A stretch of DNA of 64,000 bases. Source: Actinomycetota bacterium. GTDB taxonomy: Bacteria; Actinomycetota; Actinomycetes; Nanopelagicales; Nanopelagicaceae. This document shows positions 3,276 to 43,825 of this stretch, piece by piece (within the stretch, counting starts at the first letter, position 1; the number at the start of each line of letters is the position of its first letter). The notes under the pieces were generated by a model. It did no database searches. It saw nothing but the letters and a program-made list of their open reading frames with translations, and was not told the origin of the DNA. The stretch spans positions 1-64,000 of the forward strand of contig WLJX01000006.1 in the NCBI GenBank assembly GCA_009701575.1, written 5' to 3'. Position numbers and translations under genes: made by a program.

Positions 3276-4403
3276 TTAATTAACACAAGGTATTTTTCCG
3301 CCATCAACTGACTTACCGTTTGCCAAGTTGGCATAGTTGATTTTGGTTGGTTTTGGTGAAGGAACTGCGTTCGGATCTTTTGGCTTTGGATTAAATAGAT
3401 CTTGTACATACTTTCTAATTTTTATCTCATCTACCAAGTTAACGCTCTGGCCATTGCGCATTACATATCCCTCAATTGGCAAGGTGTGAAACTTAATATT
3501 GCCCCCAGTAAGCGCCTTTGCTTGAGGCAGGAAGCCAAGAACATCAAAGCCTGAATCAATTACTACATCTTTCTTTGCAACATTCAATAAGCCAGTTATT
3601 TTTCCGATGTCAGAAAAGATTCCCTGAGTTCTAAATTTTGTGATAACCCCAGCAATAAATGCTTGTTGACGATGCGTACGATCTAAATCTCCATTTGGCA
3701 GACCATGTCTTTGGCGCACAAACTTAAGAGCGTCTGCCCCGGTGATTGTTTGCAAACCCGCAGGGAAGATGGCACCAGAATATTTACTGTCATTGACCGC
3801 CTTATTTAGACAAACTTGAATTCCGCCGAGCGCGTTGGCTAAATCATAAAACCCAATTAAATTAACTTCCGCAAAGTGATCGATAGGAACATCTAGGAAT
3901 TGGGAAACGGTTGCAATTGCTGCCGCACGACCAGCATCTCGGGCCAAATGTTCGCGAGCGGGTTGCTGGATACCCTCTTTATATAACTTTGAATCTTCAG
4001 CGTATTTCGCATACCCGTAAGCTTCCTTGATCTTTTTCATTCCATATCCTGGAACATTTACATAGTCATCTCGGGGAATCGAAATAGCGACTGCTTTCTT
4101 TCCACCCGCAGGAAGATGTATCAGAATCATTGTGTTTGTGTTGTAACCACCGATTGAAGCCGGCCCAACATGAAGCAATTTTGAAATCTCTTTAGGTATT
4201 GGATTTCCATCATTATCTCTGCGGCTATCTAGACCAAGCAACAAAATATTTGTGTCACCGTTTGAAGATTGCTTTGCACCCTGCAGGACTTTGGATCTAG
4301 GGATTGCATTAGATGCGGCTTTACTGAAGAAATGAAAACCACCAGATGAAACAACTACGGCTATAGATAGAGCCACCGCAATCTTTCTGGCCCATTTACG
4401 CAT
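3276..4403 (-). CDS. LytR-CpsA-Psr (LCP) family cell-wall glycopolymer ligase
   Basis: LCP enzymes transfer lipid-linked glycopolymers (teichoic acid, arabinogalactan or capsule) onto peptidoglycan outside the membrane. The 375-residue protein has a cytoplasmic N-terminus, one membrane anchor (about residues 9-27) and an extracellular LCP domain. Typical blocks are ILLLGLDSRRDNDG, the Arg/Asp block ISIPRDDYV, GGIQVCL and ALKFVRQRH followed by DLDRTHRQQ. A proline-rich segment follows the domain. The start was placed at the ATG at 4403 because a TAGGAT hexamer sits 7 nt upstream; a longer in-frame extension lacks signal-peptide character. It may ligate the glycan predicted from the 33-41 kb cluster, but that link is speculative. 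Confidence 0.93.
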   Translation of the reverse strand: MRKWARKIAVALSIAVVVSSGGFHFFSKAASNAIPRSKVLQGAKQSSNGDTNILLLGLDSRRDNDGNPIPKEISKLLHVGPASIGGYNTNTMILIHLPAGGKKAVAISIPRDDYVNVPGYGMKKIKEAYGYAKYAEDSKLYKEGIQQPAREHLARDAGRAAAIATVSQFLDVPIDHFAEVNLIGFYDLANALGGIQVCLNKAVNDSKYSGAIFPAGLQTITGADALKFVRQRHGLPNGDLDRTHRQQAFIAGVITKFRTQGIFSDIGKITGLLNVAKKDVVIDSGFDVLGFLPQAKALTGGNIKFHTLPIEGYVMRNGQSVNLVDEIKIRKYVQDLFNPKPKDPNAVPSPKPTKINYANLANGKSVDGGKIPCVN

Positions 4404-31693: not shown

Positions 31694-31769
31694 GCGCTTG
31701 TAGCTCAACGGATAGAGCATCTGACTACGGATCAGAAGGTTAGGGGTTCGAATCCCTTCAAGCGCACCA
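31694..31769 (+). tRNA. tRNA-Arg(ACG)
   Basis: The acceptor stem GCGCTTG (31694-31700) pairs with CAAGCGC (31759-31765). The anticodon stem is TCTGA/TCAGA with loop CTACGGA, giving ACG at 31727-31729. GGTTCGAATCC is the T arm, and CCA (31767-31769) is encoded. A34 would be deaminated to inosine by the TadA at 20296. Confidence 0.97.
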
Positions 31770-31805
31770 GATTAAACTCATAATTCCATCAACATAAGGA
31801 GCGTT

Positions 31806-32093
31806 GTGAGCAAAGTTTATTTATTCGTTGAGATTGATGTTAAGCCAGGCATGCGAAGCGCCTTCGCGGAACATATTAGAAAACATGGCGCCCATATCCG
31901 CACTGAAGAGGGCTGCGAAACTTTAGAAATACTGCTTGATACAAAGAACGAAAATCAGGTTTGCGTCTGGGAAGTTTGGACTAATCGCGAGCTATGGGAT
32001 GCTCACATGGTCAATGATGCAAGTAAGGCTTGGCAGAAAATCGCTGCCGAATTTGTTAGTGGTGAGAAAATAACAGTTATGGACTTGATTTAA
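31806..32093 (+). CDS. ABM/YgiN-like monooxygenase-domain protein
   Basis: A 95-residue ferredoxin-like fold protein of the antibiotic-biosynthesis-monooxygenase superfamily. It starts with VYLFVEIDVKPGMRSAFAEHI, has EEGCETLEI in the second strand and VWEVWTNRELWDAHM, the usual W-hinge pattern. Members oxidise quinols or heme, or act as small stress proteins; no cofactor residue identifies the role here. The start is GTG 31806 after a strong AAGGAGCG. The hydrolase gene follows by 3 nt, so both are likely one operon. Confidence 0.8.
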   Translation: MSKVYLFVEIDVKPGMRSAFAEHIRKHGAHIRTEEGCETLEILLDTKNENQVCVWEVWTNRELWDAHMVNDASKAWQKIAAEFVSGEKITVMDLI

Positions 32094-32096
32094 CTG

Positions 32097-32816
32097 ATGG
32101 AAGTTGAAGATCGATCAGTTTTTGATTTAGAAGCAGTTCATCCAACAAATAGCGTCTCATATGGAAATGCTAGCGACCAAGTAATTGATTTTTACCTGCC
32201 AGAAAAAACAACGAAACCATTAATTGCATTGATGCATGGTGGTTTTTGGCGCTCAGAATTTGATCGTAAACATTTATCTCCGCTTGCAAAAGCACTAGCG
32301 GATTCTGGCTGGCCGGTTGCGTTAATTGAGTACCGAAGAATTATCGGTAACCCAGATGCAACTCTTCAGGATGTTCATAGCGCAATTGAAAAATTAAGTG
32401 AAGATTTCGGTGCCACTATTTTGTTAGGGCATTCGGCTGGCGGACACCTCGCACTATTGGCTGCGGGTAAATTCGACGTGCTAGGTGTAATTGCTCTTGC
32501 TCCGGTGACTGATTTGATTAGATCTGAAGAGATGGATTTAGATGAAGGTTCGGTCTCAGATTTTTTGGGTGCCCCAGCAAAGCTACGCCCAGACTTGAAT
32601 CCAATTGAATTACCACCGTTAAAAGTGAAGGTTCATGTAATTCACGGGAGCAGTGATATTCGGGTACCTGTTCAATTTTCTAGAGATTACGTCTCGAAAA
32701 TGGATAATAATTCAACGGATTTGCTCGAACTAGAAAATATTGGGCACTTTGAACTGATTGACCCCAGGAGCGATATTTTTAGCAAAATTTCCCGAGAACT
32801 AACGGCTTTGAGTTAA
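32097..32816 (+). CDS. Alpha/beta hydrolase, kynurenine-formamidase-like
   Basis: A 239-residue cytosolic serine hydrolase. HGGFWR (about residues 42-47) is the oxyanion-hole motif, GHSAGGHLA holds the nucleophile Ser, SSDIRVP the acid and GHFELID the His. The HGGFW form and overall length resemble bacterial kynurenine formamidases and the BD-FAE carboxylesterase group. If it hydrolyses N-formylkynurenine it would feed the kynureninase encoded 18 kb away, but no tryptophan dioxygenase is visible, so the assignment stays open. It is co-transcribed with the ABM protein. Confidence 0.75.
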   Translation: MEVEDRSVFDLEAVHPTNSVSYGNASDQVIDFYLPEKTTKPLIALMHGGFWRSEFDRKHLSPLAKALADSGWPVALIEYRRIIGNPDATLQDVHSAIEKLSEDFGATILLGHSAGGHLALLAAGKFDVLGVIALAPVTDLIRSEEMDLDEGSVSDFLGAPAKLRPDLNPIELPPLKVKVHVIHGSSDIRVPVQFSRDYVSKMDNNSTDLLELENIGHFELIDPRSDIFSKISRELTALS

Positions 32817-32826
32817 ATTCAAGAGG

Positions 32827-32832
32827 TAAAGT
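32827..32832 (+). promoter_or_regulatory. -10 element, leaderless promoter of sulfotransferase-like gene
   Basis: TAAAGT, 7 nt before the ATG at 32840. Confidence 0.45.
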
Positions 32833-32839
32833 TTCAGCC

Positions 32840-33943
32840 ATGGCTAAAAAAATAATTGTGCATGCTGGTTTCCATAAAACTGGCACGACTGCGATTCAAT
32901 CTAGTTTTTTCGCTGCCACAAAAGCTTTGGAGAGTGGAGGAATTACTTATCCGCACGTTGGCGGAAAGGCACACCATAAAGCCGTCTATTCCCTTATGGG
33001 AAAGACTTGGGGTTGGGAAGATCGCGGTGGAATTACTGCAACAGATAAGAAATGGCGCCAATTCTTAAAGCAGGTAAAGCGAGCCAAATCAACCGCCCTA
33101 ATTAGTTCAGAATTCTTATGTGAACTAACTGAAGAGCAGATAATAAAATTTAAGAAAGATCTTGGAAATTCTGATGTAACAATCTATTTCACACTTCGCC
33201 CACTTCTAAAGATTATTCCCTCGGCATACCAACAGCACCTTAAAATTGGAATTAAAAGCAGCTATGAGAAGTGGTTACATTCAATCCTGGATGAACCTGG
33301 AGTTTCGACCATCACTCCATCATTCTGGGTTCGCCACATGCATGGCGAAGTCTTAGCAAAGTGGATAAAGCACTTTGGTAAAGAGAATGTAGTCTTGCTT
33401 GTGGTGGATGAGAAAAAACCAGAGTTTATGTATGAACAATTCAACCTACTCCTAGGGCTGAAACCAGGCTTCTTAACTCCACAAACCGATCAAGATAGCA
33501 ATCGTTCTCTTTCTCTAGATGAAATTACTTTACTTAATACAATAAATAAGAAATTTTCAAAGAAACGCAGTTGGCATGATTATGAGACCTTCATCCGTAA
33601 TGGTTCTATAAAATACTTAACGAATAAGGTCACGCCACCAATCGATGCGGCGAGATTATTGACGCCACAGTGGGCGGTAGATATTGCTAAGAGAGTCTCA
33701 AGTGCGAACGTTGCAGAGATTAAAGGGCTAGGAATCAAAATCATTGGAGACATTGATGCGTTTGAAAACGCGGAGATCCCTATTGGTGAAAATCCAGAAG
33801 TAACAATGATTCCAGTTGAGCTAGCCGCAAAAGCTCTAGTGGCAATGGATCTTCGGGTTGTTGAAAAACTTCCGACTAAATATGTGGCAAGAATTCTTTG
33901 GAAGATGACTAAACGAGATTTAAAGAGATTTCTGCGCAAATAA
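32840..33943 (+). CDS. Sulfotransferase-like protein
   Basis: The 367-residue protein starts IIVHAGFHKTGTTAIQ (residues 5-20), a close match to the 5'-phosphosulfate loop of PAPS-dependent sulfotransferases. TLRPLLKIIPSAYQQHLK near residue 117 resembles the 3'-phosphate-binding motif (Arg followed by Ser). No signal peptide is seen. It would sulfate a glycan or lipid head group, and its position at the edge of the envelope cluster suggests that product. The C-terminal third is unassigned. PAPS synthesis genes are not in the window, so the donor is unproven. Confidence 0.72.
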   Translation: MAKKIIVHAGFHKTGTTAIQSSFFAATKALESGGITYPHVGGKAHHKAVYSLMGKTWGWEDRGGITATDKKWRQFLKQVKRAKSTALISSEFLCELTEEQIIKFKKDLGNSDVTIYFTLRPLLKIIPSAYQQHLKIGIKSSYEKWLHSILDEPGVSTITPSFWVRHMHGEVLAKWIKHFGKENVVLLVVDEKKPEFMYEQFNLLLGLKPGFLTPQTDQDSNRSLSLDEITLLNTINKKFSKKRSWHDYETFIRNGSIKYLTNKVTPPIDAARLLTPQWAVDIAKRVSSANVAEIKGLGIKIIGDIDAFENAEIPIGENPEVTMIPVELAAKALVAMDLRVVEKLPTKYVARILWKMTKRDLKRFLRK

Positions 33944-34027
33944 CTCTCAATTTTCTCGGCACCAAAAGTTCACCTTCAGTCTTTCTCTAATTTCCTATCC
34001 GCTTGGCCTTGGTTAAGAAGAACTCTC

Positions 34028-34033
34028 TAACTT
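34028..34033 (+). promoter_or_regulatory. -10 element, leaderless promoter
   Basis: TAACTT, 6 nt before the ATG at 34040. The 96-bp gap after the sulfotransferase-like gene shows no terminator hairpin. Confidence 0.45.
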
Positions 34034-34039
34034 GCTCCT

Positions 34040-35881
34040 ATGAGCACACTGGATTTTCAAGGCAAGGAAGTTATTGCCGCCCTTGAAAGTCAGTTTCAAC
34101 CCAAGATAAAGGCTCAAGAGAAGCCAGAAATACGCATCACCAACGCAATTGTCTGCTCCTTTTTCACCAGCGATGACTATTACAAAGCACATGGGGCTCG
34201 CCTCAAATCCAATTTGGAGGAGTTGGGAATCCAATACGACCTCCGAGAAATAACGAAAAAAGAGGGCGAAGATTGGGCAGCTATATGCCGCAGGAAAGTC
34301 GGATTTATTGCTGAAGTTTGCGCAAAGAATCCAGATAAAAAAGTATTCTGGATTGATGTTGATTGCGAGCTATTTTCCATACCTGACTTCATTCTAAATT
34401 CCACGGCCGACTTGATCGGATTTCAGCGAGGATTTAGCACTCCAACAAAGATTGGATATCAAAACCGAGGTCGATTTTGGGAACCTTGCTTCTGGGGAAT
34501 AAATAACACAGATCAAGCGCGCAAGATGATTACTGCGGCAGCAGAGTTTGAGGAGATTGCAACAGTTCGCGCAACCGATGACTATTTCTTTGAAGAAGCA
34601 TGGCGAGCAACTTCTGGAAATATGACATTTCAGATAATTCCATCAAATTGCGCAGTTGATAAAGGCGCCGGCTCACTCGAAGGCCATGAAACTTTCTTTA
34701 GATTTGGATCGAGCGGCCAAGTTGAAAACTTTAAGGGTGTCGTTGAACAACATAAAGGCAACACCGCTAAACGTCTGCTGAACCCAAAGCGGGAATTACT
34801 GCGATTTGCGAAACGCGTCGAAGAGAAGTTACCGCTAGGAATATCAACGAAATTACGGTTAATGGTCGATGCATCTGGAATAACTGGATACTTAACTGGC
34901 AAGAGCCACAATAATATTAATAACCAAACTATTACGAAATTGGTTACAGCAGGGAAATCCGGTGATCTTGCTGGGTTTAACTCCTCACTAACTCATTTCA
35001 AACGTAAAGTGCTGCCAAACCGATATGAACGTGCTGCGATAAAAGTTGCATCAAGTTATCTCTCATATTCTGCAAAACCAGGTAAGAATGAAGTATTTCT
35101 ATCTTGGTGGGAAAATCCATATCCTGGAAACTTTGGCGATTGGTTAACCCCATTTATTTTTAATCATTACACTGAAAATAAGATAATTTTCCAGAGCCTC
35201 ACAAATCGAACCAATAAAAACCATATTGTTAGCCTTGGTTCAGTTGGAAGATTTATAAAACCAAACTCAATAGTTGTTGGAACCGGTGTCAGTTCATTCA
35301 AGCATGCACTTAATCCAAAAGCGGAATACATTTCAGTTCGAGGTCCTCATACCGCCAAACTACTTAAGGAATCTGGCGGCCCAGAAGTTACTAGTTTTGG
35401 TGATCCAGGCGTTGTTTTATCGCGGATTTTGCCCTTTACCCGCGGGGAAACAAATGGTCGTATCGCACTTGTTCGTCATTACACACATGTTCAGGCTCCA
35501 GTCAGATTGCCAGATAATTTTGATGAATTATCAGTTCAAATTTCTCATCCAAATGATGTGATTGCATTTATCGAAAAATTGAATGAATATGACAGCGTTG
35601 TAACCAGCGCTATGCACGTAATGATTACCTGCCAAAGCTATGGAATTCCTTGCGCACTTATCGTGTTCAAAGGCTTTGAAGAGTACGTTCACGGAACTGG
35701 TATTAAATATTCAGATTACGCACTTGGCGCTGGAGTCCCAGTTATGGATCCAACCCCGATAAACCCCAAATTAGATATGGCTGAGATTAAGCCAATAACT
35801 TTCACGCACAAGGTATCAGAGGCGAAAATTAACGAAGTTGAAGCGGCGATTCGCGAAAGTTTGAAGAGATTTAAAAAGTAA
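34040..35881 (+). CDS. Glycosyltransferase-polysaccharide pyruvyltransferase fusion
   Basis: A 613-residue two-domain protein. The first half (about residues 30-260) looks like a GT-A glycosyltransferase: FFTSDDYYKAHGARLK, VFWIDVDCELF with a DxD motif at Asp107/Asp109, and a downstream ATDDYFFEEAW acidic block. After a linker rich in basic residues, the second half (about 350-600) matches polysaccharide pyruvyl transferases (CsaB/WcaK family): ENPYPGNFGDWLTPFIF, VVGTGVSS, SVRGPHTAKLL, TSFGDPGVV, VTSAMHVMITCQSYGIPC. It would add a sugar and a pyruvate ketal to a cell-surface glycan. I know these domains as separate proteins, so the fusion is unusual to me. The gene ends one base before the convergent nucleotidyltransferase. 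Confidence 0.82.
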   Translation: MSTLDFQGKEVIAALESQFQPKIKAQEKPEIRITNAIVCSFFTSDDYYKAHGARLKSNLEELGIQYDLREITKKEGEDWAAICRRKVGFIAEVCAKNPDKKVFWIDVDCELFSIPDFILNSTADLIGFQRGFSTPTKIGYQNRGRFWEPCFWGINNTDQARKMITAAAEFEEIATVRATDDYFFEEAWRATSGNMTFQIIPSNCAVDKGAGSLEGHETFFRFGSSGQVENFKGVVEQHKGNTAKRLLNPKRELLRFAKRVEEKLPLGISTKLRLMVDASGITGYLTGKSHNNINNQTITKLVTAGKSGDLAGFNSSLTHFKRKVLPNRYERAAIKVASSYLSYSAKPGKNEVFLSWWENPYPGNFGDWLTPFIFNHYTENKIIFQSLTNRTNKNHIVSLGSVGRFIKPNSIVVGTGVSSFKHALNPKAEYISVRGPHTAKLLKESGGPEVTSFGDPGVVLSRILPFTRGETNGRIALVRHYTHVQAPVRLPDNFDELSVQISHPNDVIAFIEKLNEYDSVVTSAMHVMITCQSYGIPCALIVFKGFEEYVHGTGIKYSDYALGAGVPVMDPTPINPKLDMAEIKPITFTHKVSEAKINEVEAAIRESLKRFKK

Positions 35882-36577
35882 TTACTTTAAACCTTCATTT
35901 GCTCGATCTAAATCTGCCTGGAAATCGACCTCAACTGCAAAGAGATCCGAGATATCAACTGGTTCTAGCTTTATGCCATCTTTTTCGATTGCTAATTCAA
36001 GTCCACGTTCAAAGTAATCTTGATCGGCACAAGCTTCGAGTTGTTTTATTACATCGGCCTTTTCAGATGCCGAGATAAAGTTAATACCAACAGCCTCGCC
36101 CAAAGCGTTCTGAACCGTCTTTGAAAGTTCTTTAATGAAGCCTTTTTCATCTACAGTGTATTTAACTTCTTCTTCCGCGGTCGTAGAAGTATTTACACAA
36201 ACAAATGACTTTTCGGACTTAATGCGTTCTGCAATACGCTCTAATACTTTGGCATCAAAAACAACATCACCGTTGAGCCACAAGACTCCGGATTCTTGGC
36301 TTGCACGAAGTGCTTTTAATAAACTTTTTGAAGTATTTGTTTGATCATAAACTTCGTTGTAAACAAAAGATGCAGATGGATGTGCTTCCATAATCATTTC
36401 TAATTTAAAGCCAACCACAACAGTGATTCGAGCTTCATCGCCAAATACTTTTGAGACATTTTCCATTTGTTGCTGCATGATCGAACGACCATCAGATAAA
36501 ACAGTAAGCGGCTTTGGCCAAGGTTTTCCCAATCTAGTTCCCATGCCAGCCGCCAGAATTACAACTTGAATTGCCAT
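35882..36577 (-). CDS. Sugar/polyol-phosphate nucleotidyltransferase (probably CTP-dependent)
   Basis: A 231-residue NTP-transferase-fold enzyme. VVILAAGMGTRLGKPWPKPL (from residue 5) contains the nucleotide-binding loop GMGTRLG and the PKP lysine; WLNGDVVFD holds the metal-binding Asp. Similar proteins are phosphocholine or inositol-phosphate cytidylyltransferases. Because it lies head to head with CDP-alcohol phosphotransferases, I infer that it makes the CDP-polyol or CDP-alcohol they consume, much as in the archaeal IPCT/DIPPS pair. The ATG at 36577 has GAAGG 5 nt upstream; GTG at 36589 is an alternative. Confidence 0.78.
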   Translation of the reverse strand: MAIQVVILAAGMGTRLGKPWPKPLTVLSDGRSIMQQQMENVSKVFGDEARITVVVGFKLEMIMEAHPSASFVYNEVYDQTNTSKSLLKALRASQESGVLWLNGDVVFDAKVLERIAERIKSEKSFVCVNTSTTAEEEVKYTVDEKGFIKELSKTVQNALGEAVGINFISASEKADVIKQLEACADQDYFERGLELAIEKDGIKLEPVDISDLFAVEVDFQADLDRANEGLK

Positions 36578-36626
36578 CTCTACCTTCACAACCCATCTAT
36601 ATCTAAAGAATCCCAGTTAGGCACGA

Positions 36627-36632
36627 TAGATT
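36627..36632 (+). promoter_or_regulatory. -10 element, leaderless promoter of the CDP-alcohol transferase operon
   Basis: TAGATT, 7 nt before the ATG at 36640. Confidence 0.5.
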
Positions 36633-36639
36633 ACCGCTT

Positions 36640-38265
36640 ATGGCCACAAATCTTAGGACTCTAGAAGTTAATCAGGGAACCAAGATTGACGATGTTTTGA
36701 AAGCCTTTGAATCAGGGAACCAAGATCTATTACTGGTGGATGAAAATACCGTAGTAACTAAGCCTCACATGGAGTTGCTAACGGACTATCCCCGAAGTGT
36801 GACGACTGCCTTAGTAACGAAGATAAAAGATGGTGACACTCGTGTTGGTGGTTCTCGGATTACAGGAGCAAGTTCCGGATTTCACGAAGTTGGATACGGC
36901 AACCACAATTTCCTTGGGGCGATTCGACTCTCGCAATCCCAGCGGGTTGAAATCATTAAAGTTCTGACAGATATTTCAAATACAAACCATTCCGGATTAG
37001 CTATCGACCTAATTTTGGTTGGCCTAGTTCGAGCAACAATTTTGGTCGCATCGGCCGAAGTTGTTGGTGCGCCTTGCACTAGAAGCATCGAAAAATTAGA
37101 ACGAGATCGAGTGGCTGGTGAGATCGCCTCACTAAACGATGCCAGACTTCGGTTGAAGATTGCTAATCGAGCAAATGATGGATTCTACTCAGTCTTCTTC
37201 CTTCGCAAAATATCGAAACTTTTTACCTGGCTCGCCGTACGTTTAAAGATGACGCCAAATCAAGTTACTTTAATTTCCTTTGCGATCGGATTGTTTTCAG
37301 CATATCAATTCAGCAAAGGAACTTTTTGGACAATATTTGCTGGTGCTGTGCTCTTACAACTCAGCATCATTATTGACTGCGTTGATGGTGAACTTGCAAG
37401 ATATACGCGACAATTCTCACAACTAGGTGCTTGGCTCGATGCAATCACGGATCGAATAAAAGAGTATTTGGTTTTTTATGCACTTGCATATGGCGCTGCA
37501 AAACAGGGTCGGGACTTATGGATTCCGGCAATTGGAATGATGATTTTTCAAACCTTCAGACATCTTTCTGATTACAACTTCGCCCGAATCAATAAGTTTA
37601 GAGCGCCAGCGCCTATTGCAATCTCCTATGATCTTAAATCCGATGGCTACATTGTTGTCGAACGCGAAAAACGCTCTCGTTTTGAATATTGGTCTAAAAA
37701 GGCAGTTCAATTCCCAATTGGCGAACGTTGGCTAGTTATAAGCGCTTCCTCTGTTGTAGGAGGTGCAGCCTTTACCTTCACAATAATGCCAATTCTTTCG
37801 CTAATTTCGATAGCTTTAGTTTTTAGAGCCCGAGTACGCAAAACGCTAACTTGGCCGAAGTTTAGAGTAAATAATGAGTTCATCGATGAACAATTAGATT
37901 CAATTAAAAATAAGAATTCAACAAATCGTTTTGATTGGCTTGAACCATCTATCTTGCGCCTCGTTGAAGGATTGATTTTCATCGAGCTTGCAATTATTAG
38001 CGATATTGATCGTTCACTGATTTTCCTACTTGTATTCGCAATTATTTTTAATCATTACGACAATATGTATCGCGCCCTGCAAGGTGAGAGAAAGCCAAAA
38101 TGGCTAGCAATAGCTGGCGGATTTATTTTTGGCCGCCTACTAATCATTCCTGTTTGGATCTTTCTTGGATTGCCAATAACCATTCTCGTCTACTACTTCT
38201 CAATACTTTTCTTTGTCATATCTTCAGCACAGTGGATTAAGAGCCACCGAGTCAAGGCAGCATAA
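36640..38265 (+). CDS. CDP-alcohol phosphotransferase, three-part actinobacterial form
   Basis: A 541-residue membrane protein. The catalytic motif is perfect: Asp246, Asp249-Gly250, Ala253-Arg254, Gly263, Asp267 and Asp271. It would transfer a phospho-alcohol from a CDP-linked donor to an acceptor in the membrane. The N-terminal 170 or so residues are soluble and look like a degenerate nucleotidyltransferase (LLVDENTVVTKPHMELL resembles the 'LVVDADLV' strand) without a GTR loop. The C-terminal region has further helices like the DUF5941 domain I recall from actinobacterial relatives; this was not checked. It starts an operon running to about 41896. Confidence 0.85.
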   Translation: MATNLRTLEVNQGTKIDDVLKAFESGNQDLLLVDENTVVTKPHMELLTDYPRSVTTALVTKIKDGDTRVGGSRITGASSGFHEVGYGNHNFLGAIRLSQSQRVEIIKVLTDISNTNHSGLAIDLILVGLVRATILVASAEVVGAPCTRSIEKLERDRVAGEIASLNDARLRLKIANRANDGFYSVFFLRKISKLFTWLAVRLKMTPNQVTLISFAIGLFSAYQFSKGTFWTIFAGAVLLQLSIIIDCVDGELARYTRQFSQLGAWLDAITDRIKEYLVFYALAYGAAKQGRDLWIPAIGMMIFQTFRHLSDYNFARINKFRAPAPIAISYDLKSDGYIVVEREKRSRFEYWSKKAVQFPIGERWLVISASSVVGGAAFTFTIMPILSLISIALVFRARVRKTLTWPKFRVNNEFIDEQLDSIKNKNSTNRFDWLEPSILRLVEGLIFIELAIISDIDRSLIFLLVFAIIFNHYDNMYRALQGERKPKWLAIAGGFIFGRLLIIPVWIFLGLPITILVYYFSILFFVISSAQWIKSHRVKAA

Positions 38266-38268
38266 GTT

Positions 38269-39051
38269 ATGACATCCCAACCAATCAGACCTACAAAACC
38301 CACAATTGCGCAAATTCGAGAAATCTCGCAGCCAGTTTCAGTAACTGGGCGATCAACTTCAGAGCATTGGGTAGCCGATCTTTATCAGCGAAAAATCTCT
38401 GTGTATTTAACAAGAATATTTCTTAGAACTCCAATCACTGCGAATGGCGTGACTTGGTTGATGGTAATTGTTGCTGCGTCTATTGGCCCCGCACTCTTAA
38501 TCCAGGGTTGGGTAGGAATAGCCCTCGCACTATTTTTGAGTCATCTTCAAATGCTTATTGATTGCTGCGATGGCGAAGTTGCAAGATGGCGAAATACAAA
38601 ATCACCAATGGGAATTTTTCTCGATAAATTGGGACATTATGCGGCCGAAGGTTTAATTCCGATTTTCTTTGGCCTGCGACTGGCCGGTTGGCCTGAGCGC
38701 CCAATCACTGGATCTATCTATCCTTTTCTCGGAGCGTTGCTTGCAGGAATTGTTATTGTCAATAAAGGTTTGAATGATGCCGTTCATGTCGCAAGAGCAT
38801 TCTCTGGATTAACAAAAATTCAGGATACAAAGGGAGCGAACCTTCCGATAAAAGGGGCTCTTCGTAGCGCCCGTAAAATATTCAAATTCTTCCCAGTACA
38901 AAGGATCTTTCATTCGATCGAATTCACCATGTTCGTAGCGCTTTTTGGTGCTTACCCAATTTCACTCAAAATCGCCCTCGGAATAGCTCTATTTGTGACA
39001 GTTGGGCATATCGCGGCAATCGTCTCTTCGGCAAAATTACGGAATAATTGA
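38269..39051 (+). CDS. Second CDP-alcohol phosphotransferase, His at the fourth Asp position
   Basis: A 260-residue membrane enzyme beginning 4 nt after the previous stop. The motif reads Asp98, Asp101-Gly102, Ala105-Arg106, Gly115, Asp119, but the fourth acidic residue, the proposed catalytic base, is His123 (FLDKLGHY). I recall LDRVGHY-type sequences in other actinobacteria, so this is probably a subfamily trait and not damage. Such a change might alter the acceptor or the mechanism. It is adjacent to a canonical paralogue, so the two may act in sequence on one product. Confidence 0.82.
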   Translation: MTSQPIRPTKPTIAQIREISQPVSVTGRSTSEHWVADLYQRKISVYLTRIFLRTPITANGVTWLMVIVAASIGPALLIQGWVGIALALFLSHLQMLIDCCDGEVARWRNTKSPMGIFLDKLGHYAAEGLIPIFFGLRLAGWPERPITGSIYPFLGALLAGIVIVNKGLNDAVHVARAFSGLTKIQDTKGANLPIKGALRSARKIFKFFPVQRIFHSIEFTMFVALFGAYPISLKIALGIALFVTVGHIAAIVSSAKLRNN

Positions 39052-39054
39052 GAT

Positions 39055-39825
39055 ATGCGCGCGATACTCGGTCAACTTAAATCAGCCTTGCTACAACTAT
39101 TTCCAACTACGAAGTATCGATTGATTTTAATAAGCTTAGTTTTGATTGCTGCATTTATTTCAGTATCTGAACTTGCTGTTGCAAAGTTGTTTACCCAAAT
39201 AATTATGCACGAAGGTGACATGCCTCGCTCACGCTTAATAATATTCATTATTGGTTTCTTTGCCTTTTTTGGTGCTACAAGAGCAGGTCATTACTTTCAA
39301 AGAATCTATCGTGTCAATGTCTTCGATCGCGCCTTCAAAGCCTCAGAAGTTGAAGTTCATCGCAGCAAAGAGAATTGGCGCTGGTCTTTAGCATTTGAAT
39401 TAACAACACTGCTTAGTATTTTTACCCAAATGGGAGTAGTCATCATCTTTTTCACATTTCTAAATTGGAAATTTGGCCTACTCAATATCTTTGTTGTCTT
39501 AGTGATTTTTCAAATACTTGGTCGCATCTTCCGAAAACAGATGAAAACCCAGCGTGGATTTGTTAAAGCAAAGGTACGAAAAGAGCACATACCAAGTTCG
39601 GTGAAAATCGGGAGCCGAATCAAATCTGGCGAGGTTGGCATTTTATTATCTGGAATCGCAATGTTGACGCTCTTTGCATCACTTATATTTCTAAGTTATA
39701 ACGGAGAGATAAGTCCTTCAAATACCATCGTATTGTTCTTTGGACTTCGAATGCAGAATTCAAGCCTCTCTAATATTTCAAGTGGTTTGATGAGATTTGC
39801 AAGGGCTAGAACACATAGTGAATAG
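39055..39825 (+). CDS. Orphan ABC-exporter-like membrane domain
   Basis: A 256-residue membrane protein with about five to six hydrophobic segments. Its plan resembles the transmembrane domain of an ABC exporter: long helices, a coupling-like basic loop near RGFVKAKVRKEH, and a C-terminal stretch (FFGLRMQNSSLSNISSGLMRFARA) like the end of such domains just before the ATPase. It stops there, and no Walker A/B cassette is encoded in the neighbouring genes. Possible explanations are an ATPase supplied in trans, a non-transport scaffold, or decay. The GT2 gene overlaps its end by 8 bp, so it is expressed with the cluster. Confidence 0.6.
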   Translation: MRAILGQLKSALLQLFPTTKYRLILISLVLIAAFISVSELAVAKLFTQIIMHEGDMPRSRLIIFIIGFFAFFGATRAGHYFQRIYRVNVFDRAFKASEVEVHRSKENWRWSLAFELTTLLSIFTQMGVVIIFFTFLNWKFGLLNIFVVLVIFQILGRIFRKQMKTQRGFVKAKVRKEHIPSSVKIGSRIKSGEVGILLSGIAMLTLFASLIFLSYNGEISPSNTIVLFFGLRMQNSSLSNISSGLMRFARARTHSE

Positions 39826-40570
39826 TGAAAACCTGCTAACAATCGGGTATTCAACTCTTTCGGGTAGAGCGCAAAATATTAGATTTATTGCAGGTGTAAC
39901 AAATTTAGTTATTGTTCAGAATCCACAATCAGATCCGATGCCAACTTTCCCTCCCGAGGTTTCAGTTACAGAATTAAAGAGCCGTGGGGTAGCAAAGAGT
40001 CGCAATGCTGCTATTGCCGAGGCAACTGGAAAGTACTTACTTTTTGGTGATGATGATTTGGAATTTAAGCCATCTGGAATTCATGAAGTAGTTGCATATC
40101 TAGAGGCTAATCCAAAGATTTCGATTGTTTTGGCTCAGGCGGTTAATGAGAAAGGCGAGCTACGTAAGCCCTATCCCAAGAATTCACACTCTCTTAAACT
40201 TCGAAACTCAGCCAAAGCCGCTACCTATGAGATGTTTATCCGAGTGGCGGATTTCAAAAAACTAGGCATCAAGTTTGATGAAAACTTCGGCGCAGGAGCA
40301 GAAAACTACTTGGGGGATGAATACATTTTGATTGCTGATGCGCTCCGCTTGGGTTTAGAAGGAACTTTTCTCCCAATCACAGTTGCAATGCACCCAGCAG
40401 ACAGTTCTGGAAATCTGAAAAACACCAGAAAAGATATTTCTGCTCGCTCAAAAGTATTCACCAGAGTGTTTGGCCTATGGGCCATTCCAATGAGATTTGC
40501 CTTTCTAATTAAGCCACCGTTTAAGAAATTTGGAATTCTAAATTCCATTCGATTCATAATTGGTAAATGA
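39818..40570 (+). CDS. GT2-like glycosyltransferase
   Basis: A 250-residue GT-A fold protein. SRGVAKSRNAAIAEATGKYLLFGDDDLEF is the conserved GT2 block ending in the DDD nucleotide-sugar/metal motif, and GAENYLGDEYILIADALR resembles the catalytic ED region. There is no membrane helix at the start; it probably acts on the inner face of the membrane. The start is taken as GTG 39818, overlapping the preceding stop by 8 bp; TTG 39797 is an alternative. The acceptor is likely the product of the CDP-alcohol transferases. Confidence 0.78.
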   Translation: MNSENLLTIGYSTLSGRAQNIRFIAGVTNLVIVQNPQSDPMPTFPPEVSVTELKSRGVAKSRNAAIAEATGKYLLFGDDDLEFKPSGIHEVVAYLEANPKISIVLAQAVNEKGELRKPYPKNSHSLKLRNSAKAATYEMFIRVADFKKLGIKFDENFGAGAENYLGDEYILIADALRLGLEGTFLPITVAMHPADSSGNLKNTRKDISARSKVFTRVFGLWAIPMRFAFLIKPPFKKFGILNSIRFIIGK

Positions 40571-41241
40571 AAGTATTTGCACATCGAGGGGCATCGGGTC
40601 GAGCGCCCGAGATGTCTCTAACTGCTTATCTTGCAGCAATTGAAGATCGCTCAGAAGGCTTTGAATGTGATGTCAGGTTAACTCAAGACCAAGAAATTGC
40701 CTGCTTCCACGATCCTGATACCGCAAGAATCGCTGGCGTAAAACATAGAGTTTCAAAGAGTAAATTTCACCAGATGCAGAGTTTAGTTGCAGCTATCTCT
40801 TTAGACCAATTACTCACCCTGGCCATTGCTAATAAGAAAGATCTGTTAATTGAAAGTAAGCATCCGGTTGCATCTGGTGGCGCAGTTGAATGGAAAGTAC
40901 TAGAACTTTTAAAGCGCAGAAATTCAGAAATTTCTGCATCCGGAATTGAAGTTATTTGTATGTCATTTTCTTGGTTTGCAGTTAGGCGATTTAAGAAATC
41001 ATATAAGGCCTGTACAGTTGTAAAGTTCTATCTTCAAGCACTTGTTGCTCCAACTCAGATCGTCGCGCTTCATATTGAGCTTATAAAAAAATATCCCAAC
41101 CTGGTCACTAGATTGCAAACCAGAGGTAAGCGGATATTTGTTTGGACTGTTAATTCCAGCAGCGATATGAAATTTTGCAAAGATTTAGGTATTGAGGGCG
41201 TAATCACTAATTACCCAGATAAAGCGCGAAAATATGTCTAA
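40567..41241 (+). CDS. Glycerophosphodiester phosphodiesterase
   Basis: A 224-residue TIM-barrel enzyme. VFAHRGASGRAPEMSLTAY (from residue 3) has the HRG and PE catalytic residues, and FECDVRLTQDQEIACFHD the metal-binding E-x-D and the second His. LIESKH and the C-terminal FVWTVNSSSDMKFCKDLGIEGVITNYPD complete the family pattern. Without a signal peptide it acts in the cytosol. In this setting it may hydrolyse phosphodiester lipid head groups or recycle cluster products. It overlaps the GT2 gene by ATGA. Confidence 0.9.
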   Translation: MKVFAHRGASGRAPEMSLTAYLAAIEDRSEGFECDVRLTQDQEIACFHDPDTARIAGVKHRVSKSKFHQMQSLVAAISLDQLLTLAIANKKDLLIESKHPVASGGAVEWKVLELLKRRNSEISASGIEVICMSFSWFAVRRFKKSYKACTVVKFYLQALVAPTQIVALHIELIKKYPNLVTRLQTRGKRIFVWTVNSSSDMKFCKDLGIEGVITNYPDKARKYV

Positions 41242-41896
41242 AGAGAAGAGCCGTATTTTGCTTGGGGTGATTGCCTATTTCTCAATAGTTTTCTATGCAT
41301 CTGGTTTAGCTAGAACTGGTTCAGTTCAAGAGTTAGCCGAAGCGCCAGTACCCGCAACAAAAATTCTCTGCTTTAATTTGGAAACAAAGGTTCTACGTGA
41401 AAGTGACACGAATTTAGGTTGTTTACTCGAGGAAGAATCTTTAGGAGATTCACCAATTGAACATGGAGAAATTCGTCCAGATGAATTGGATCGAACTTTT
41501 GAGGTTCGTTTTTTGGCAGCCCAAGCTGCGGCGAAAGAAGCTGGTTTTTCAATAACAATTACATCTGGTTACAGATCACGAGCGCTGCAAGAAAGGCTAT
41601 TTGCGGAGGCTGTAAGGAAATATGGAAGTGAAGAGGAAGCCTCAAAGTGGGTTTTACCTAAAGATATTTCGCATCATCCATGGGGCACGGCTATCGATGT
41701 AAATTATCCTGGAGACAAAACCGCTGTTAAGTGGTTAGAAGATAATGGCTCATTATTTGGACTTTGCCGCGTTTACGAGAATGAGTGGTGGCATTTCGAA
41801 CCAATAATCGCACCTGGGGATACTTGTCCAGCAATGATGGTTAACGCTCTAGAAAGTTTAGAGGAATTACCTACTGGCGCGAACGGTTCAAATTAA
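41234..41896 (+). CDS. VanY-type D-Ala-D-Ala carboxypeptidase (M15B)
   Basis: Extracytoplasmic zinc peptidase of 220 residues. One N-terminal hydrophobic segment (about residues 9-24) anchors or exports it. The M15 domain shows TSGYRSRALQERLF, the zinc motif SHHPWGTAIDV (near residue 146) and ENEWWHFE with the catalytic Glu and the third zinc ligand. It trims D-Ala from peptidoglycan stem peptides. It overlaps the GDPD gene by 8 bp, which places a wall-remodelling enzyme in the same transcript as the glycan genes. Confidence 0.9.
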   Translation: MSKEKSRILLGVIAYFSIVFYASGLARTGSVQELAEAPVPATKILCFNLETKVLRESDTNLGCLLEEESLGDSPIEHGEIRPDELDRTFEVRFLAAQAAAKEAGFSITITSGYRSRALQERLFAEAVRKYGSEEEASKWVLPKDISHHPWGTAIDVNYPGDKTAVKWLEDNGSLFGLCRVYENEWWHFEPIIAPGDTCPAMMVNALESLEELPTGANGSN

Positions 41897-41902
41897 TATA
41901 CT
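41897..41902 (+). promoter_or_regulatory. -10 element, leaderless promoter of epimerase gene
   Basis: TATACT, 6 nt before the ATG at 41909. It is the best match to the consensus in the window, and it starts immediately after the TAA of the upstream gene. Confidence 0.6.
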
Positions 41903-41908
41903 TACAAC

Positions 41909-42790
41909 ATGACAATTCAACTTCCAAATAAATTAGGCGTTCACGCTCTTGTATGGGTCGGTGGCTGGTCCCACGCAGAATGTCGTGAGGCAATTCAAAA
42001 CACGGTTGATGCCGGATACGATTTAATCGAAATTCCTGCACTCGATCCTTCACTTATCGATACCAAACACACACTTGCAACTCTTAAAGAATTTGGAATT
42101 AAAGCAGCTTGTTCACTCGGCCTCTCTTTTGACGCTGATATTAATAATGAGGACCCAGCAATAGTTGCGAAGGGCGAAGCGAAATTAATGGCTGCCCTAG
42201 ATGTAGTAGCCGGCATCGAAGGAGATTACCTAGGCGGTGTTTTGTTTAGCGCCCTTGGAAAGTATTCACATCCAGCTACGGAAAAATCTAGAGCGAATGC
42301 TGTGGCCTCATTAAAGCGCCTAGCAATTGCGGCACAAGCAAAGGGGATAACACTTGGTTTAGAACCAGTTAACCGCTATGAATCAAATTTGATAAATACA
42401 ATCGATCAAGCAGTTGCGATGATTAAAGATATAGGTGAGCCAAATGTGAAGGTTCACATTGATATTTATCACATGAATATTGAAGAGCAAGATCTAGCAT
42501 CACCAATCATTAATAATGCCGAACATATTGGATATGTTCATATTGGCGCTAGCCACAGAGGTGGACTTGGAACCGGAAATGTTGACTTCGATGAACTATT
42601 TGGTGCCCTTGCAAAGATTAACTACAAAGGCGTTATTACCTTTGAGAGTTTCTCATCGGCAATTGTTCACCCAGACTTATCTCTTGCTTTAGCAATTTGG
42701 CGAAACCTTTGGACCGAGAACAAGCCAATGGCGCTAAGTGCTCGCAAGTACATGGTCGAACATATTGTTCGTGCTAATAATCTTGCCTAA
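41909..42790 (+). CDS. Sugar isomerase/epimerase, D-tagatose/D-allulose 3-epimerase-like
   Basis: A 293-residue AP-endonuclease-2-type TIM barrel. The metal ligands appear as Glu in LEPVNRYE, Asp in HIDIYHMNIEE, His in GYVHIGASHRG and Glu in TFESFSS, as in ketose 3-epimerases. It interconverts ketoses or related sugars and would feed central metabolism next to the mannose-6-phosphate isomerase gene. The exact sugar is not known. Confidence 0.85.
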   Translation: MTIQLPNKLGVHALVWVGGWSHAECREAIQNTVDAGYDLIEIPALDPSLIDTKHTLATLKEFGIKAACSLGLSFDADINNEDPAIVAKGEAKLMAALDVVAGIEGDYLGGVLFSALGKYSHPATEKSRANAVASLKRLAIAAQAKGITLGLEPVNRYESNLINTIDQAVAMIKDIGEPNVKVHIDIYHMNIEEQDLASPIINNAEHIGYVHIGASHRGGLGTGNVDFDELFGALAKINYKGVITFESFSSAIVHPDLSLALAIWRNLWTENKPMALSARKYMVEHIVRANNLA

Positions 42791-42799
42791 GCTACTAAT

Positions 42800-43825
42800 T
42801 TACCAAGCTAGCGGAGCATCTTTAGCAAGTGGTGGGCGACAAACCACACCGCTTGCACCGTTTAACGTCCAACTTCCAGCGGAATGTGGAATAAGAATTG
42901 CATCGCCCTTAACTGCGCTAATTTCTGAATGATTTTCAAAAGTTATATTTCCAGTACCTTCTAAGATCAACGCAATACTAAATCCGGCAGCAATCTTGCT
43001 TGCATTTCCAGCGAGATAATCTGCGCGGAAATATGGATCAGCAACAGCGGTAAATACTGATTGATCAGAGCCACTAAATAAACGATTTGAAAAGACGAGT
43101 TTGCTCGCTTCTTCTTTATCGATTGGTGTGTAGCGAAGTGCATCTAATACCGTATCGAAACCTAATCCGAGATGGCCGTCCTTAACTCCGTCGACTGCAA
43201 AATCATTCCATTCAAGAAGCGCGGATAAATCTGTTGGCTCTTGAAGTTCAAGAACAAAGATTCCAGCACCGATTGCATGCGGCGTTCCTGCAGGAACAAA
43301 AACTGTATCTCCAGCCTTAACATCAAATTTTTGAAGTGATGCAAGCAAACCATCAGCATCTCTTGCATCTACCATCTTTGAAACATCTGATTTCTTCAAC
43401 TCGGTATTGAAGCCCAGACCGACATTTGCACCAGCAGGTGCTTCCAAAATAATCCAAGCTTCAGTCTTTCCATGTTTTAGCGAAAGATGATCTTTAGCAA
43501 ACTTACGATTTGGATGGTAATGAACTGGAAGTCGTTGATCTGGATCAAGTAACTTCATTAACAGCTCCGTACTGGCACCAAAGGTATTTAAATGTTCTGC
43601 GCCAAGCCATTTCTCTGGATTAGCTATTACAGAATCTCGCAAGTAACTTCCATCCGATAAAACCGATAACCCCATCGTTTTTTCACCAAAGCGTGTGGTC
43701 ATAGAACCGATCCACTCTTCTGGTCGCATTGGGCCACCTGGACCATTACGTAAGGCTCCGATGCGGTAGCCGCCCTTGTAGAAGTGATCAAATTGGTTGG
43801 ATGCGAGTTTCTGAGGTGTAATCAT
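42800..43825 (-). CDS. manA: Mannose-6-phosphate isomerase, class I
   Basis: Zinc enzyme that interconverts mannose 6-phosphate and fructose 6-phosphate. LPVHYHPNRKFAKDHLSLKHGKTEAWIIL has the zinc-binding histidines and Glu, and PAGTPHAIGAGIFVLELQEPTDLS the conserved signature of the cupin core. At 341 residues it is of the short class I type. It is the downstream gene of the MFS transporter on the minus strand, with its own putative -10. It may serve sugar catabolism or supply mannose for glycans. Confidence 0.92.
   Translation of the reverse strand: MITPQKLASNQFDHFYKGGYRIGALRNGPGGPMRPEEWIGSMTTRFGEKTMGLSVLSDGSYLRDSVIANPEKWLGAEHLNTFGASTELLMKLLDPDQRLPVHYHPNRKFAKDHLSLKHGKTEAWIILEAPAGANVGLGFNTELKKSDVSKMVDARDADGLLASLQKFDVKAGDTVFVPAGTPHAIGAGIFVLELQEPTDLSALLEWNDFAVDGVKDGHLGLGFDTVLDALRYTPIDKEEASKLVFSNRLFSGSDQSVFTAVADPYFRADYLAGNASKIAAGFSIALILEGTGNITFENHSEISAVKGDAILIPHSAGSWTLNGASGVVCRPPLAKDAPLAW

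Follow-up and report, generated by a model that had tools for sequence, protein, structure and literature searches.

Sulfation modules of the NodPQ-NodH type tie sulfate-activating genes to a dedicated sulfotransferase. In Streptomyces a syntenic region with genes for a CDP-alcohol phosphatidyltransferase, a family 2 glycosyltransferase (GT2), a nucleotidyltransferase, tagGH and araM has been called teichoic-acid associated, on the basis of synteny alone (PMC13118837). Here we analyze a cluster of nine genes at positions 32840-41896 of a 64-kb stretch of DNA from a bacterium of the family Nanopelagicaceae (contig WLJX01000006.1 of assembly GCA_009701575.1, positions 1 to 64,000), referred to below as the window. 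We read it most readily as an accessory pathway, of teichoic-like type, for an envelope glycan that is also sulfated; we place at roughly 0.6 the probability that the island serves to make a glycopolymer or glycolipid of the cell envelope with phosphodiester-linked polyol units that is sulfated and, in the clade of the window, probably pyruvylated. The author of an earlier note on this DNA knew of no named pathway with this exact set of genes, a statement that needs a qualifier since the core has already been noted as the Streptomyces syntenic block (PMC13118837).

Gene content and conserved linkage

All nine open reading frames (ORFs) listed in the earlier note are present, and Pfam backs the assignments of genes 2-5, 7, 8 and 9, with family cut-offs of 25.3 bits for PS_pyruv_trans and 22 bits for CDP-OH_P_transf; genes 1 and 6 have no match in a Pfam search. 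In what follows gene 1 is called SULF and genes 4 and 5 are called CDP1 and CDP2.

Gene 1 (SULF), 32840..33943, plus strand: putative sulfotransferase dependent on 3'-phosphoadenosine 5'-phosphosulfate (PAPS), with 5'-phosphosulfate-binding (5'-PSB) and 3'-phosphate-binding (3'-PB) motifs and CysD-CysNC linkage
Gene 2, 34040..35881, plus strand: two-domain protein with a C-terminal polysaccharide pyruvyltransferase (PF04230, residues 396-541, 40 bits)
Gene 3, 35882..36577, minus strand: cytidylyltransferase-like NTP transferase of the LicC/PntC/IPCT group (PF12804, NTP_transf_3, 66 bits)
Gene 4 (CDP1), 36640..38265, plus strand: class I CDP-alcohol phosphotransferase (PF01066, 47 bits; PF19365, DUF5941)
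Gene 5 (CDP2), 38269..39051, plus strand: member of the CDP-alcohol phosphotransferase family without the fourth Asp (PF01066, 37 bits)
Gene 6, 39055..39825, plus strand: transmembrane domain (TMD) of a type IV (MsbA-like) ATP-binding cassette (ABC) exporter by predicted structure, with no nucleotide-binding domain (NBD)
Gene 7, 39818..40570, plus strand: GT2 glycosyltransferase, a conserved neighbor (PF00535, 46.5 bits)
Gene 8, 40567..41241, plus strand: GDPD-family phosphodiesterase without signal peptide, accessory, found in 18 loci (PF03009, 107 bits)
Gene 9, 41234..41896, plus strand: VanY-type M15B carboxypeptidase, membrane-anchored, accessory and local (PF02557, 52 bits)

Genes 4 to 9 follow one another in the same direction, a few bases apart or overlapping, and gene 3 diverges from gene 4, with its best start at ATG 36577; the start of gene 7 has been corrected to the likely GTG 39818.

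Of 151 sampled genomes of the order Nanopelagicales, 30 encode CDP1 homologues with E ~1e-42 or better, and gene order was compared in more than 30 related loci. A core consisting of a divergent NTP transferase gene followed by CDP1, CDP2, an ABC-type membrane domain and a GT2 recurs in these loci and, leaving aside those at contig ends, is unbroken in very nearly all of them; the order is shuffled in one (L070). The cytidylyltransferase gene stays with CDP1 across loci and the GT2 accompanies the core in complete loci. This linkage is far above chance, the divergent cytidylyltransferase, CDP1, CDP2 and the GT2 being kept together in about 30 of the 151 genomes. Most loci add the ATPase-less exporter domain and SULF, the latter immediately upstream, while the cluster of five distant loci of the order (L081-L085) has instead a different GT2 and a gene of the TagF-like family PF04464. 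The GDPD gene lies downstream of the core in many loci, the pyruvyltransferase is found in only 11, all of them near that of the window, and cluster membership of VanY is limited to the clade of the window. The notion of all nine genes as one pathway is not supported, as the last three come and go between loci.

The cluster is flanked by a gene of family f16 on one side and by PMI-MFS-NCS1 on the other (about 31700-43825 in the window). In a genome of the same genus that lacks the cluster (G070, L159:9627-12973) the same flanks enclose two unrelated genes, so that the cluster is an accessory, swappable genomic island, in agreement with the variable content that other genomes have downstream of FNR. 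One such variable region (L157:1164-11522, genome G004) holds an ORF of 3,452 residues with a secreted-protein-like start.

Candidate enzymes of transfer, activation, sulfation and export

The signature D1xxD2G1xxAR...G2xxxD3xxxD4 of the CDP-alcohol phosphotransferases (CDP-APs) is complete in CDP1, all 17 sequences compared having the four Asp, and among solved structures AF2299 and IPCT-DIPPS come nearest to it. CDP1 combines an N-terminal domain of unknown fold with a C-terminal membrane extension (DUF5941, on which we found no paper); a degenerate cytidylyltransferase was considered for the N-terminal domain and rejected, as comparing its profile to that of the NTP family yielded a probability of only 0.5%. 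Extra hydrophobic segments follow the catalytic core and, since CDP-APs with lipid acceptors typically have extra C-terminal helices (PMC4634129), they suggest that the acceptor of CDP1 is lipid-linked.

The most unusual point of the cluster, judged from sequence, is the lost aspartate of CDP2. In every family member examined the D4 position is occupied by His, or by Ala in Streptomyces, with D1-D3 retained, and the AlphaFold model matches the AF2299 fold with Z 16.7 over 214 residues, so that CDP2 is placed as a relative of the class I enzymes, by fold and by D1-D3, that lacks their canonical base. In MtPIPS the change of D4, the catalytic base, from Asp to Asn nearly abolishes activity (PMC4634129). 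With D4 lost though the fold is kept, CDP2 is presumably either non-catalytic or dependent on another base, and of the two CDP-alcohol phosphotransferases claimed initially CDP1 stands, with its full signature, whereas activity of CDP2 is not supported. The family is sharply bounded in a phylum-wide search, with strong matches extending to E ~1e-72 and the next CDP-OH proteins at E ~1e-19. Tentatively, and with rather more doubt than confidence, we suggest that it comprises D4-less relatives of the CDP-alcohol phosphotransferases, acting as obligate partners of CDP1 or through another base, in a hitherto unrecognized actinobacterial pathway for a sulfated phosphopolyol surface polymer.

Profiles of the gene 3 family match PntC (6pd1, E=2e-13), LicC (1jyk, E=8e-9) and IPCT (2xme, E=5e-7), all of which use CTP, and 15 of 16 rows of the family contain the motif GxG[TS]R-x(4-8)-PK, the consensus described previously (PMC6697681); both features place gene 3 with the LicC/PntC-type cytidylyltransferases. 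The alcohol phosphate that it activates is most likely a polyol phosphate, with glycerol phosphate a tentative first choice, some other compound (an amino-alcohol phosphate, for example) a doubtful second and inositol phosphate a still more doubtful third. In the Streptomyces block an AraM-like Fe-ADH adjoins the cytidylyltransferase and glycerol phosphate is therefore favored there. Supply of glycerol-1-phosphate by AraM was also considered for Nanopelagicales and set aside, since PF13685 matches reach at most about 32 bits in those Nanopelagicales genomes with the cluster that were listed, compared with 97-105 bits in other actinobacteria; the frames concerned, mostly of about 350 residues, are probably other dehydroquinate-synthase-like proteins. 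MIPS, which supplies inositol-1-phosphate, is found in most genomes including that of the window, and a search gave none in G047 and G062, both of which carry the cluster, a result that is not decisive for inositol.

Sulfation, raised earlier as a possibility, is well supported by motifs and gene associations. The 5'-PSB motif GFHK[TS]GT and the 3'-PB motif R-x7-S, as expected for a PAPS-dependent sulfotransferase, are found in 10 of 10 SULF homologues; searches of SULF against Pfam, NCBIfam and PDB sequences returned no meaningful match. Several genomes have the order CysD-CysNC-TauE(-like permease)-SULF. Strong SULF matches are bound to the cluster (24 of the 30 cluster genomes, 0 of the 121 others), and among cluster genomes adenosine 5'-phosphosulfate (APS) kinase is present in 23/24 with SULF, that of the window being the sole exception, as against 0/6 without (p=1.2e-5), figures that ignore shared ancestry. 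Weak partial matches in the cluster-free genomes G109, G142 and G143 were set aside as other sulfotransferases. In L145-L147 a CysD-CysNC-TauE operon comes with a second paralogue of SULF, and in L148, from a genome lacking the cluster, the operon stands without one; near the CDP1-NTP-FeADH-CDP2 block of L141 (genome G467) there is a CysNC-like tblastn match of 58 bits (3494-3904) that may be another kinase or GTPase. No paper joining acI Actinobacteria and sulfotransferase was found in the literature.

The membrane protein encoded by gene 6, described earlier as exporter-like, has the fold of an ABC-exporter TMD in its predicted model (pLDDT 85). All of its best 50 structural matches are of the ABC exporter type, with Z 15-17 (up to 17.4), about 231-250 of its 256 residues align onto the TMD of these exporters, and the model has the six helices of a type IV TMD. 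This placement comes from predicted structure alone, the gene 6 profile giving nothing usable against PDB sequences. The ORF stops after the TMD, with no NBD, in 10 of 10 aligned homologues, and because no ATPase is present an export role for gene 6 is putative. It is plausible that the ATPase was lost within the order, with L079, L094 and L080 as possible stages: downstream of the core, about where gene 6 would lie, there is an exporter-like protein with a degenerate ATPase domain in L079:7902-9206 and L094:2326-3639, and one with an intact-looking Walker A in L080:12231-13223. Other actinobacteria have an ABC-2 pair as the exporter beside the module.

Of the remaining genes, the C-terminal half of gene 2 scores well above the PS_pyruv_trans cut-off and is assigned as a polysaccharide pyruvyltransferase; its N-terminal half, with a DxD-like motif and no family placed, may be glycosyltransferase-like. 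The GDPD protein has no N-terminal hydrophobic segment and is therefore probably an enzyme of the cytosol and not one that trims at the surface; trimming outside the cell by the GDPD is not supported. VanY has a single N-terminal hydrophobic segment at residues 7-27.

Proposed pathway and its alternatives

In the pathway that we propose the minus-strand cytidylyltransferase would join CTP to the phosphate of a small alcohol, a polyol being the most likely, and CDP1 would move the alcohol-phosphate from the resulting CDP-alcohol onto an acceptor, probably a membrane glycolipid, that the GT2 would lengthen. SULF would add sulfate from PAPS provided by CysD/CysNC, and the pyruvyltransferase would add ketals in loci that carry its gene. 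CDP2 might be the partner of CDP1 or catalyze a second transfer using a different base, and an ABC-type exporter would flip or export the product, ABC-2/TagGH in Streptomyces-like loci and the NBD-less MsbA-type protein here. The teichoic-like nature of this phosphopolyol glycopolymer or glycolipid is suggested by what related modules of Streptomyces and other actinobacteria contain, namely a dehydrogenase resembling AraM, an exporter of the TagGH type or a polymerase resembling TagF, in keeping with the product proposed initially; TagF-like PF04464 genes also lie near related modules in L092, L138 and L139.

Several points weigh against this pathway. The window cluster has no TagGH, TagF or AraM, matches to PF13685, the AraM family, are only weak in cluster-bearing genomes of the order, and gene 6 lacks an ATPase. 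The genome of the window, which is 79% complete, gives no CysD match and no strong APS kinase match, while its relatives do. NCBIfam scores of CDP1 and CDP2 fall far under the cut-off of every named enzyme, and we infer the product, substrates, acceptor, step order, export and surface location.

The cluster might alternatively alter a phospholipid or glycolipid head group, giving a sulfated or phosphopolyol glycolipid and not a polymer, with CDP2 as a non-catalytic partner of CDP1. The absence of a polymerase or ligase from the window cluster, the single GT2 of the core, the MsbA-like fold of gene 6, the loss of D4 from CDP2 and the hopanoid genes that adjoin the Streptomyces block are all consistent with this; however, the TagF-like polymerase and TagGH-type exporters of relatives favor a polymer, and we regard a head-group modification as unlikely. 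Somewhat less likely again is that the polyol phosphodiester made by the cytidylyltransferase and CDP1 is soluble, a compatible solute resembling DIP or diglycerol phosphate, and that the glycan genes are unrelated cargo. Although AF2299 and IPCT-DIPPS process no lipids (PMC4634129) and IPCT is among the matches of the cytidylyltransferase, the GT2 is kept with the core, SULF tracks the cluster, relatives have ABC-2 exporters and TagF-like genes alongside the module, CDP1 has its additional C-terminal segments, and freshwater mesophiles would presumably have little need for such solutes. That CDP1 and CDP2 are ordinary phosphatidylinositol-phosphate and cardiolipin/PGP synthases is very improbable and refuted as far as sequence allows, for, although both belong to PF01066, their PIPS scores in NCBIfam are 61 and 25 against a cut-off of 170 (ClsA 25 against 240), most of the order lacks CDP1 orthologues, and, in line with a CDP-alcohol chemistry distinct from theirs, the housekeeping enzymes sit on another contig, where the PIPS-like copy has a PatA-like acyltransferase and a HIT protein as neighbors and the PGPS-like copy lies beside der (neighbors named by inspection of their sequences).

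We therefore retain the envelope-glycan pathway as the most likely reading. Nanopelagicales are abundant freshwater bacteria on which phages have been isolated (PMC10202952), and a sulfated, swappable surface coat, if correct, would matter for the diversity of strains and for their resistance to phages. Because the core is present in genetically tractable Streptomyces, what it makes and what the enzyme without D4 does are directly testable.

Comparison with known systems

The Streptomyces block (NZ_CP023408) has homologous CDP1, cytidylyltransferase and CDP2 genes together with a GT2 in an operon-like arrangement, as in the window, and in both cases the CDP2 homologue lacks D4, with Ala there and His here. 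The GT2 belongs to another group (f9), and, unlike the window cluster, the block includes AraM along with an ABC-2 exporter but neither sulfotransferase nor pyruvyltransferase; the AraM-like Fe-ADH and an ABC-2 (TagGH-type) exporter stand beside the module in other actinobacteria also. In Streptomyces fungicidicus the related block (L161:5408-18777) lies between idi/galE and hopanoid genes, immediately ahead of hpnC-hpnD-hpnE-shc. A literature search with a set of S. coelicolor locus tags gave no study of what these genes do.

The closest solved relatives of both CDP1 and CDP2 are Archaeoglobus AF2299 and IPCT-DIPPS (PDB 4o6m, 4mnd). IPCT-DIPPS pairs a cytidylyltransferase with a CDP-AP, as here, but in the window the two are separate genes and the score against NF041135 is 78 bits where 580 are required; CDP1 has in addition the DUF5941 extension, CDP2 has no D4, and there is no soluble-solute context.

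CDP-polyol logic is common to the cluster and to wall teichoic acid synthesis (Tag/Tar), and TagF-like and TagGH-type genes lie beside the module in relatives, yet none of TagO, TagA, TagB, TagF and TagGH is among the window cluster genes; transfer here would use membrane CDP-APs, and sulfation would be added. The LicC/PntC systems that tailor surfaces with phosphocholine or AEP (PMC6697681) provide the best profile match to the cytidylyltransferase and a similar surface-decorating logic, but the cluster has no licA, licD or ppm and the partner enzyme is a CDP-AP, not LicD. With the NodPQ-NodH modules, finally, the cluster shares the linkage of sulfate activation to a sulfotransferase, while the acceptor differs and the glycan genes are unrelated.

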